Positions 24,084 through 36,444 of a DNA stretch of 39,231 nucleotides are shown here, piece by piece. A program made the translations under genes and the position numbers. The notes under the pieces are model-generated. The model did not search any database. It was not told the DNA's origin and saw only the letters and a list, made by a program, of their open reading frames with translations. The DNA comes from Candidatus Pacearchaeota archaeon (GTDB lineage: Archaea > Nanobdellota > Nanobdellia > Pacearchaeales > GW2011-AR1). The stretch covers positions 1-39,231 of the forward strand of contig JAFCFJ010000012.1 of assembly GCA_017608705.1 (NCBI GenBank), read 5' to 3'. Numbering within the stretch: position 1 is the stretch's first letter; each line of letters opens with the position of its first letter.

Positions 24084-25451
24084 TTAGTTTTTTATTTTCT
24101 TCACCCGAGGTCCTTCAGGCGTGTCATCAACCCAATAACCTTTTGCTTTTATTTCTTCACGTAATCTATCAGCAGTTTCCCAATCTTTCCTTGCTCTTGC
24201 TTCCTCTCTTTCTTGCACAAGCTTTATTATTTCAGCAGGAATTTCTTCTTTTGCTACAGATTCTACGTCAAGGCCAAGTACCTTGTCGAAATCCAATAGC
24301 AATGAGAATTTTTCACCCTTGCTAAGGTTTTCATCGCGCAGCATTTTCCACATTACTGCTAATGCTCTCGGTAAATCCATATCATCATTGATCGCTTCAA
24401 GAAATTGTTTCTTCCATTTCTCAACAATTCTGCTCCTTATCTTAGCCCTATCATTCTTCAGCTCAGCAGCTATATTGTACAGCCTCTCTAATGTATTGCT
24501 TGCAGCCTTTAGCTTTTCATAGCTAAACTTCAGCTGGCTTCTGTAATGTGCGCTAAGGTAAAGATACCGCAATGCTATAGGATTGTAGCCTTTTTCTAGA
24601 ATGTCATGTAATGTGATTATGTTGCCAAGACTCTTACTCATTTTTCCTTCAGGCATAACTAGATGTTCGCAGTGCAACCAATAACGTACGAATTTCTTGC
24701 CGGTAGCTGCCTCGCTCTGGGCTATCTCATTAGTGTGATGTGGAAATACAAGATCTATGCCTCCGGTATGAATATCAAAAGTTTCACCAAGATATTTCAT
24801 GCTCATTGCGCTACACTCTATATGCCAGCCAGGCCTGCCTTTACCAAGTTCTGTTTCCCAAAACACACCACCATCTTCTGCATCGTAAAATTTCCATAAG
24901 GCAAAATCCTGTATGTCTTCTTTGCCGTATTCATCAGCTCTTATTCTCGACCGCATTTTTTTCTTGTCAAGCTTAAGTCCAGCAAGTTTGCCATAATCTT
25001 TGAACTTGCTTACATCATAATATATTCCATCATCACTTTTGTATGCATAACCCTTTTCCATCAGTTTTTTTATTAATTCTACCATTTCTTTGATATGTTC
25101 TGTAGCTCTTGGCATAACATCTGGCATTATCACATTAAGGCTCTTTAGGTTTTCAAGAAATGCTTGCTCATATTTCCTTGTTAGCTCTTGCCTGCTTATT
25201 CCAAGCTTCTGCGATTTTTTTATGATCTTGTCATCAACATCTGTTATGTTCATAACATGCTTGACCTTATAGCCATTGTAGGACAAGATACGCTTTAGTA
25301 CATCCGCAAACACGAAAGAGCGTAAGTTACCTATATGTGCATAATCGTAAACAGTCGGACCACAGCTATAAATCCCAACGAAATCTTTTCTCAGCGGCTC
25401 AAAAATTTCTTTCTTTTTGCTGAATGTATTGTAGAACTTTAGTTCAACCAT
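24084..25451 (-). CDS. cysS: Cysteinyl-tRNA synthetase
   Basis: A 455-residue class I synthetase of normal length. HIGN signature in [11 protein letters not shown], zinc ligands including YSCGPT and WHIECSAMS plus FPHHTNE, and K-M-S-K-S in [12 protein letters not shown]. The C-terminal helical domain binds the tRNA-Cys anticodon and ends with the [15 protein letters not shown] motif. It charges tRNA-Cys with cysteine. Six bases lie between it and the adk start downstream. It appears complete. Confidence 0.97.
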
Positions 25452-33254: not shown

Positions 33255-33638
33255 CTATATTTCTATCCCCTCCTCCTCGCTCTCGGTCGTTTCCTCTTCA
33301 GTCTCGTCCTCCGGCTTAGCCAGCTCCATGATCTCTCCCTCTTCCGCGATTTCTTGCGTTTCTCTCTCTTCCAATTCTATCTTTTTCTTCTCTTCTTCCT
33401 CAGTTTCCTCTTTTTCAGCAACAAGTTTTTCTTCTCTTTTCTTTGGCAGCGGTCGCCTTACTGTAATTGGCAACACTCCTGCCTGGAATTCCTTCTCGGC
33501 GATTTTTATCACGTCATAGTTTAGCTTTTCCAGTTCTTCCTTATCAAGCTTGAGCAAAATTGGCGCACCCATTGCTAACTGCAAGGCTCTTGCCCCAATA
33601 ATCCTTGCCACCTCATATTTTGTGAATTCCTCATTCAT
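33255..33638 (-). CDS. rpoK: RNA polymerase subunit K (omega/RPB6) with acidic tail
   Basis: A 127-residue protein. Residues 1-68 are a standard Rpo[24 protein letters not shown] and then [17 protein letters not shown]. The remaining 60 residues are a very Glu-rich tail ([16 protein letters not shown] ... [12 protein letters not shown]), not part of typical RpoK, which is usually 55-95 residues. RpoK stabilises the largest polymerase subunit. Its ATG overlaps the Rrp42 stop as ATGA. Confidence 0.93.
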
Positions 33639-34407
33639 TTTATCTCTTTCTCAACAAGCCTCAAGAGTTCTTTACATTTCTTTTGCGCATTTTCAAGCAT
33701 ATAAAAAATTTCCTCTTCTTCTAATGCTGCCTCATTTCCTTTTTGTAGAGCATTTATCCTTTCCCCTTTCTTTGTGAAAGACACAGCAATGCTAAGCCTT
33801 GCCACACTCGCCTCCTCTTCCTCACGTATCGGGTCAACAACAATTTTGTCGTTTATCTTATGAAATGTTACTGTTATAGGCATGCTTTCTGTAAGCGGTA
33901 ATTTCTTATTTGTGAATTCTCCATATATTACTCTTTCTTTTTTCTCGTCATATTTTGGCATTCGTGCAACCTTCAATGCTGTCACAGCAGCTAGACAACA
34001 AGCATCTATCAAGTTTCCATCATCATTTATGGAATATATGTCAAGGTAGATAATCCAAACCTTTTCACCTTTCTTTATGCATAATTTCTTGAAATCTATA
34101 TATCCGCTTTCGCGAATGCCCCTGTCAACAATTCGTGCGAGTTCTATAGCATCTATTTTTGGCGGACCAGGTTCAAATTCTTCTGAGCTAAGAGGTAAAA
34201 GCTCTACTGTCGTGATGAGCACGCCCTCATCCTCACTGTCTGGATAGGGCTCGCCAACATCATTACTCTTGCAGATCCTTCAGCATTTTTTGACACATTT
34301 GTCTCTATCTCTATCTTTCTATAGTCAAGCAGTCCGCGCCCATCAAATCGCTTTTCGCGCTTCAAATATTCTTCTATTCTTTTTTTCGTGAGGTTTGGTG
34401 TTTCCAT
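33635..34407 (-). pseudogene. rrp42: Exosome subunit Rrp42, disrupted by a short deletion and frameshift
   Basis: The first frame (ATG 34407) gives a normal start: RFDGRGLLDYRKIEIETNVSKNAEGSARV. The sequence then jumps near 34256-34268. The protein continues in another frame with VGEPYPDSEDEGVLITTVELLPL and on through FEPGPPKIDAIELARIVDRGIRES to a normal C-terminus. About 12-13 residues (the family stretch with K-L-G-N-T and a G-V-K) are absent. Rrp42 is the non-catalytic partner of Rrp41 in the exosome ring. Everything else is well preserved and the neighbours are intact, so missing sequence or a very recent lesion is likely. Confidence 0.88.
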
Positions 34408-34408
34408 T

Positions 34409-35104
34409 TTACTCCTTAACTTTTTTCAGAGCCTTAATTTGCTCTTGATAGACTTTTTTTGCAGCTTTTTTTCCAAGCGCTATAGCTTTCTTGAGTTCCT
34501 CTGGCGATATCTTGCCGTCGAGCTGCAACAAGCTAATTTTCCCGCTCTCGCTGAGAAAAGCCATAGGAATATCAGTAGCGCCTTCACCTTCCTCATAGCT
34601 TTCTTCTTCCTTGCAGACATCAACAACAAGTTGCTTGTCTATCTTTCCCACTGAAACAGAAGAGACAAGCTCTTTCATAGGAACGCCAGCATGTGCAAGC
34701 GCGAGCGCGGCAGCATTTATCCCGGCACATCTCGTTGAAGCATCGGCTTGCGTTATGATTATGAAAACATCTATCACCGCGTTGGGGAAATTTTCGAGCA
34801 TAACAACAGGGGCAAGTGCCCATTCTGTTACCTTGCTTATCTCATAGCTTCTTCTTGTTGGGCCTGGCTTTTTTCTCTCAGCCACAGAAAAACTCGCTAA
34901 ATCATAATAGCAGCGAAGCAATGCCTTTTGTGGATCTTGTAAGTGTTGCGGATGGAGTTGTCTTGGTCCATATACAGCAGCTATCGCAGTTGTGCTTCCG
35001 AAACTAAACCTTGCTGAGCCAAAGGCACGTGGGACTACGCCAACTTCTGCCTTTATCTCCCGCATCTCATCGAATGCTCTACCATCTACTCTTTTGTATA
35101 CCAT
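34409..35104 (-). CDS. rrp41: Archaeal exosome catalytic subunit Rrp41
   Basis: A 231-residue RNase PH-type protein. Start KRVDGRAFDEMREIKAEVGVV, then AIAAVYGPRQLHPQHLQDPQKALLRCYYDLASFSVAERKKPGPTRRSYEISKV, NAVIDVFIIITQADASTRCAGINAAALALAHAGVPM and VGKIDKQLVVDVCKEEE with the catalytic acidic residue. With Rrp42 it forms the hexameric ring that degrades or tails RNA 3' ends. Located between Rrp4 and Rrp42 in the classical archaeal order, 2 bases from each. Complete. Confidence 0.96.
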   Translation of the reverse strand: MVYKRVDGRAFDEMREIKAEVGVVPRAFGSARFSFGSTTAIAAVYGPRQLHPQHLQDPQKALLRCYYDLASFSVAERKKPGPTRRSYEISKVTEWALAPVVMLENFPNAVIDVFIIITQADASTRCAGINAAALALAHAGVPMKELVSSVSVGKIDKQLVVDVCKEEESYEEGEGATDIPMAFLSESGKISLLQLDGKISPEELKKAIALGKKAAKKVYQEQIKALKKVKE

Positions 35105-35105
35105 T

Positions 35106-35771
35106 TTAACCTTTATTCAGAAATTCTTGTACCATTTCTGTAAGTCCTTCGATAAACGATTTTTCTGTAACGAGTCGTATGGCTTTCGCAGCAAGAAGCT
35201 CACTCTCTATACTTTTACCTTTTATCCATACCACACCGTTTTGGCCTACAATTATATTACATTCTGTCTCATTCTTTATGAGGTTAACCATGCTTCCTCC
35301 TTTGCCAATAACTCTCGGAACTTTGCTTGGATTGATGATTATTATCAAACCATCTTTGATTTTCCCAAGGCCACGGCCCTTTACAGTCACATCTATACCG
35401 CGATGCTTCACAAGCGCAACTTTTGCTATTATCATGTCACCTATATCAAAGTATTCTGTCAGGTCTGTTTTATCTATAAAAAATGGGCACTCGCTTATTG
35501 GAAGAAAAGCAAGATAAGGTGCATTGATGTCGAGGAGCCAGCCATTGAATGTGATATCTATAACCTTACCTATTATAGTGTTCCCTTTTCTTGGCATATA
35601 AACTCCTGAAAGCGGAATGACGCGAACAAGCTTTTCGTTTATATCTGCCAGTCCAAACCTTGTTGCTATGATCGCATTTCCTTCTTTTCTTGTTCCTTCT
35701 CCTGGAAGATAACCTGGCTCGGTAGTTATCGTTTCTCCGGGCACCACGATCTTTCTTTTTTCCTCACTCAT
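35106..35771 (-). CDS. rrp4: Archaeal exosome RNA-binding cap subunit Rrp4
   Basis: 221 residues from the ATG at 35771, which overlaps the SBDS stop by 8 bases and gives the usual N-terminus (VVPGETITTEPGYLPGEGTRKEG). An S1 domain (IIGKVIDITFNGWLLDINAPYLAFLPISECPF) is followed by a KH domain (INPSKVPRVIGKGGSMVNLIKNET). Three such subunits cap the Rrp41/42 ring and feed substrate into it. Complete. Confidence 0.95.
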   Translation of the reverse strand: MSEEKRKIVVPGETITTEPGYLPGEGTRKEGNAIIATRFGLADINEKLVRVIPLSGVYMPRKGNTIIGKVIDITFNGWLLDINAPYLAFLPISECPFFIDKTDLTEYFDIGDMIIAKVALVKHRGIDVTVKGRGLGKIKDGLIIIINPSKVPRVIGKGGSMVNLIKNETECNIIVGQNGVVWIKGKSIESELLAAKAIRLVTEKSFIEGLTEMVQEFLNKG

Positions 35772-36444
35772 TTTCTTTAACCTCCTTCGTAACAGCTGTT
35801 CCATCTGTTAGCTTGTTTAACTTATCATAGAACTCCGACTGCAATCCTGTAGGAACAGCAACTACACATTTTAGGCTGCCATCATCGAGCCATTCCTCAT
35901 TCTCTTTGTATTGTTGCAACACACCATACACTTTGCCAACATACATCGGCGGGATAATTATTTCAAGCTTTTTTATTTCAAGTTTTATTGGCAATACTTT
36001 GCTTAATTGTTCTATTATTTTTGGTATCTGTTCTTCAATAGGTCTATTTTCTATATTTACCCCTGCCTCTTCAATAGCCCTTTTTATTCTCTCTGGTGTA
36101 TGTGGGGTTCCAGTTCTTGGATCAGTCGCATGTCTGGCAAGAAAATCTACAACTTGTTTTATTTTTTCTTCTCTTTCTTTTTCTCTGTATTCAGCCGGCA
36201 ACAAAATTTCGCCTTCTTTTACTATTCTTTCAGCTATGGCATACAAATCTGTAGTGCCAAAAGCTTCTTTCATATCCTGCTCGCTCGCATGCATTCCTTT
36301 TTTTGAATCAGTAAATATGGCGTCTATAGCGAGTGTCTCGTGAATACTGCCTTGACCTTCTTTTAACTTAAGTGCGCTATCTAAGTCGACAACAATTTCA
36401 AAATTCTTTCCTCTAACCTTAAGTCTAGCTACTGTGTTGACCAT
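35764..36444 (-). CDS. sdo1: SBDS/Sdo1 ribosome maturation protein
   Basis: A 226-residue protein. N-terminal SBDS domain: ARLKVRGKNFEIVVDLDSALKLKEGQGSIHETLAIDAIFTDSKKGMHAS, then FGTTDLYAIAERIVKEGEILLPAEYRE. Helical middle: FLARHATDPRTGTPHTPERIKRAIEEAG. C-terminal ferredoxin-like domain: IIPPMYVGKVYGVL. In eukaryotes the family releases eIF6 from the 60S subunit. Placed between PsmA and Rrp4, the common archaeal order. Complete. Confidence 0.96.
   Translation of the reverse strand: MVNTVARLKVRGKNFEIVVDLDSALKLKEGQGSIHETLAIDAIFTDSKKGMHASEQDMKEAFGTTDLYAIAERIVKEGEILLPAEYREKEREEKIKQVVDFLARHATDPRTGTPHTPERIKRAIEEAGVNIENRPIEEQIPKIIEQLSKVLPIKLEIKKLEIIIPPMYVGKVYGVLQQYKENEEWLDDGSLKCVVAVPTGLQSEFYDKLNKLTDGTAVTKEVKENE

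Follow-up and report, generated by a model that had tools for sequence, protein, structure and literature searches.

A 37-nucleotide loss in the rrp42 gene of a Pacearchaeota draft genome very probably reflects a local assembly error

Introduction

Pacearchaeota are members of the Cluster 2 DPANN archaea. A published survey found that archaea of this cluster lack Csl4 and encode Rrp4, Rrp41, and Rrp42 (PMC7414124), and structures of archaeal Rrp42 have been solved (PDB 2wnr_A, 2pnz_B, 2ba0_I, 2br2_A). For the interpretation of a broken gene in a draft genome, studies of assembly quality form the other point of comparison: metagenome assemblies are documented to contain local errors as well as incorrect genes where scaffolds were joined (PMC7111523), and assembly is a documented source of false pseudogenes (PMC11017572). 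Here, we describe an rrp42 gene with a frame change in a window of 39,231 nucleotides from a Candidatus Pacearchaeota archaeon, the window being an entire contig (C5) of an assembly that comprises 35 contigs and 601 kb and is 85.9% complete. Two near-closed relatives, G059 (one contig) and G011 (four contigs), served as controls.

Results

The relevant features of the window are the following:

34407 to 33635, minus strand: rrp42 as assembled, with a frame change at about 34264-34258
34261 to 34407, minus strand: 5' part of rrp42 in the first frame (METPNLTKK...NAEGSARV), 65-66% identical to Rrp42 of the two relatives and aligned with 29 relatives
34254 to 34270, minus strand: rrp42 junction, where 37 nt corresponding to the KLGNTEVIVGVK strand are absent and the frame switches, as judged from a spacing of 35 nt, compared with 72 nt in every one of the 29 relatives
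33635 to 34258, minus strand: 3' part of rrp42 in the second frame (DVGEPYPDSEDEG... to the stop), 58-62% identical to the relatives, with RNase_PH and RNase_PH_C matches
34409 to 35104, minus strand: rrp41, intact, matching each of the two relatives in one unbroken stretch over almost its entire length
35106 to 35804, minus strand: rrp4, intact, an uninterrupted ORF with uninterrupted matches to both relatives

The gene starts at 34407 with the opening protein sequence METPNLTKKRIEEYLKREKRFDGRGLLDYRKIEIETNVSKNAEGSARV and then runs out of frame. This first frame, which reads NAEGSARV at the junction, terminates after 67 residues (ORF 34204..34407), and the second frame, SNDVGEPYPDSEDEG, is open as far as the stop at 33635. 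On the minus strand, the DNA reads ...AAT GCT GAA GGA TCT GCA AGA GTA up to the junction and ATGATGTTGGCGAGCCC... from there on; the protein after the frame change is (D)VGEPYPDSEDEG, and the continuation in this other frame is DVGEPYPDSEDEGVLITTVELLP... to the stop. Profile searches with the 3' part identified both domains of archaeal Rrp42, namely RNase_PH (PF01138, E 1.6e-18, starting at profile position 38) and RNase_PH_C (PF03725, E 3.6e-14), and the 5' part can be aligned to the relatives. Apart from the junction, the gene is free of decay, with 58-66% identity to the two relatives and no additional damage. As assembled, it nevertheless does not provide a single uninterrupted frame with a complete sheet of the first domain, as 37 nt are absent and the frame is changed. 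The domain matches and the alignment to relatives thus confirm the original prediction that the gene encodes Rrp42, and the minus-strand reading bears out the frameshift that it had placed at 34254-34270, with NAEGSARV before the junction and the other frame after it.

The size of the loss was determined by spacing in 29 intact Rrp42 relatives, which were translated and aligned. The interval from the A of the AEGS motif to the P of the PYxD motif spans 24 residues (72 nt) in each of these 29 relatives, with identical spacing, whereas the same interval has 35 nt in the window, and 37 nt are therefore absent, which is 12 codons and one base. The lost segment corresponds to K-L-G-N-T-E-V-I-V-G-V-K, the KLGNTEVIVGVK strand, which is found in the solved archaeal Rrp42 structures as well. 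The earlier estimate of about 40 missing bases, removing a conserved K-L-G-N-T-V-I-x-G-V-K strand region, was thus close to the exact value, and the assignment of the missing part agrees with the alignment. Neither the missing peptide pattern nor a second rrp42 copy was found when the retrieved genome itself was searched. A deletion between direct repeats was also considered, and by eye no clear repeat of more than 1-2 nt was seen at the junction, which is only suggestive since the undeleted sequence is not known.

The window's minus strand carries, in this order, the genes for proteasome alpha, SBDS, rrp4, rrp41, rrp42, a small RNA polymerase subunit K-like gene, enolase, and ribosomal protein S2; several of these names were assigned by sequence recognition and are what we take the genes to be. 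Such a gene order is familiar in archaea. The genes rrp41 and rrp4 lie directly upstream of rrp42, in G011 and G059, too, the orthologues adjoin one another in this order, and the uninterrupted matches to both relatives support the earlier statement that these two neighbours are intact. Elsewhere in the window (24093-25445, minus strand), a cysteinyl-tRNA synthetase gene lacks 10 residues in frame (GHLTSDADEG in relatives). This 30-nt gap was dropped as a candidate lesion, as a second copy in G059 spans it in one match with 60% identity, and by sequence it looks like a natural variant.

Including the genome under study, 86 of the 92 genomes searched gave an rrp42 match, and among these nearly all relatives have one uninterrupted gene; one match contained an internal stop, and a genome with a completeness of 62% gave only a weak partial match. 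A lineage-specific loss of rrp42 could thus be ruled out, as the gene is intact in related genomes. The G011 orthologue aligns nearly full length with the solved archaeal Rrp42 proteins (E 3e-68 to 2wnr_A), and the window gene matches the orthologues of the relatives on both sides of the junction; as assembled, it differs from the solved proteins in the absence of the KLGNTEVIVGVK strand and in its frame change. Nor does the gene resemble a genuine pseudogene, as its 3' part is fully open and conserved and the loss is not common to the relatives, in which the gene is intact.

For a genome-wide comparison, the ORFs of each relative served as tblastn queries against the other genomes, and we counted the points at which the match to a single gene switched from one frame to another. 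Coverage of the genome under study was nearly whole, with the last 301 bases of contig C35 left out and contigs C2, C3, and C23 masked; these three contigs (2207-2235 bases) consist of N throughout. Frameshifting losses of 15-200 nt numbered 13 in 213 genes in the comparison with G059 and 19 in 291 genes in the comparison with G011, whereas the two relatives compared with each other gave one such loss in 227 genes and one in 222. When the count was limited to genes that all three genomes share and that are conserved over the missing segment, 12-13 losses in the genome under study stood against 0-1 (Fisher p 0.0008-0.003). Merging yielded 20 frameshift events with losses of 26-185 nt, two of which were judged weak, one on C11 near 41.8 kb in a poorly conserved region and one on C24 in a low-complexity frame. 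After reading of the junctions, 18 well-supported events in 17 genes remained, with losses of 26-140 nt. In this genome, the same comparison revealed neither insertions nor frameshifts of less than 15 nt, and the absence of such small frameshifts rules out sequencing indels as a general cause. No run of N occurs in any unmasked contig, which means that gaps of such a size are unmarked anywhere in the assembly.

Besides rrp42, frameshifts affect, among others, the genes for elongation factor EF-2, leucyl-tRNA synthetase, phenylalanyl-tRNA synthetase alpha, DNA gyrase A, CDC48, anaerobic ribonucleotide reductase, a Hef-type helicase, SecY, a DHH-family protein (two lesions), an SRP54-type GTPase, an XPG/FEN1-type nuclease, RadA, ribosomal protein L3, and a tetrapyrrole-methylase-family protein. 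In-frame losses within conserved regions were seen in the genes for DNA polymerase B (60 nt), alanyl-tRNA synthetase (45 nt), FtsZ (90 nt, starting inside the GGGTGTG motif), and ribosomal protein S3 (66 nt). Every broken copy is the best match to the respective gene in its own genome. The seventeen losses other than that of rrp42, together with the four in-frame losses, are located on contigs C4, C9, C10, C11, C12, C14, C18, C19, C25, C26, C27, C32, and C35. The gyrase gene, at 1229-3591 of C35, is of the bacterial type and carries one lesion; its G011 orthologue matches the bacterial gyrA model over the full length.

Discussion

Our comparison points very strongly to a local error in the assembly of this archaeal draft genome as the cause of the rrp42 loss; in the organism itself, rrp42 is almost certainly normal. 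Similar lesions are present in about 20 other genes, many of them essential, and hardly any in the two relatives, which argues for an assembly error and against a biological loss; repeated damage of a single type in unrelated essential genes, as seen in this assembly, is what an artefact of assembly would leave. We infer that two contig pieces would have been joined without the intervening sequence, and that 37 bases of rrp42 would have been dropped thereby. The step responsible was most likely scaffold joining, or the closing of short gaps with the gap left out and no filler inserted, and the closing of short gaps without filler is consistent with the absence of N in the unmasked contigs. One and the same fault would then have recurred about 20 times in conserved genes of the assembly. 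This resembles the faulty scaffold joins of metagenome-assembled genomes, at which incorrect or incomplete protein-coding genes occur, many per assembly (PMC7111523), with the difference that the losses described here were deduced from the comparison with relatives and not from read mapping. We found no second assembly of this species.

Taken literally, the assembled sequence would mean that rrp42 was inactivated by a genuine and recent deletion of 37 nt, in the organism or in a part of the population, and that Rrp41 and Rrp4 lack their partner in the ring; the genome indeed has no second copy of the gene that could speak against this reading. However, about 20 comparable lesions affect other genes, some of them indispensable to any cell, the remainder of rrp42 is undecayed, rrp41 and rrp4 are intact, and related genomes have kept rrp42 intact, and we therefore regard such a deletion as highly improbable. 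The original prediction had mentioned a ring without its partner as the consequence of a genuine loss; this possibility is unsupported, as the same type of lesion is present in about 20 other genes and hardly in the two relatives, and the reserve with which it was put forward was justified. Recoding, either by programmed frameshifting or by an RNA editing process that puts back the lost segment, would account for the large number of essential genes that look broken, but 12 missing residues cannot come from frameshifting, no other site in the retrieved genome codes for the missing peptide pattern, and the relatives encode the whole of rrp42 in one frame. We know of no archaeal recoding system on such a scale, and the probability of this explanation appears to us to be practically nil. 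It is also extremely unlikely that the deletions in rrp42 and in many essential genes are all real, with the proteins being made by an unknown route or the organism depending on a partner cell. No cell would be viable without all of the broken genes, among them those for EF-2, SecY, and tRNA synthetases, and the losses as a set therefore cannot be real, which does not by itself prove that the single loss in rrp42 is artefactual. If the deletions were true, the cell would have to do without intact genes for EF-2, SecY, or tRNA synthetases, which would be extraordinary, and for this reason we do not believe them.

In summary, the break in rrp42, very probably an assembly error, is no evidence for an exosome without Rrp42 but belongs to a set of about 20 short losses in a single draft assembly. 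The completeness of about 86% may be an underestimate, as marker genes could have been cut by such short losses. Broken or shortened genes in this assembly should not be taken as gene losses of a reduced archaeal genome.
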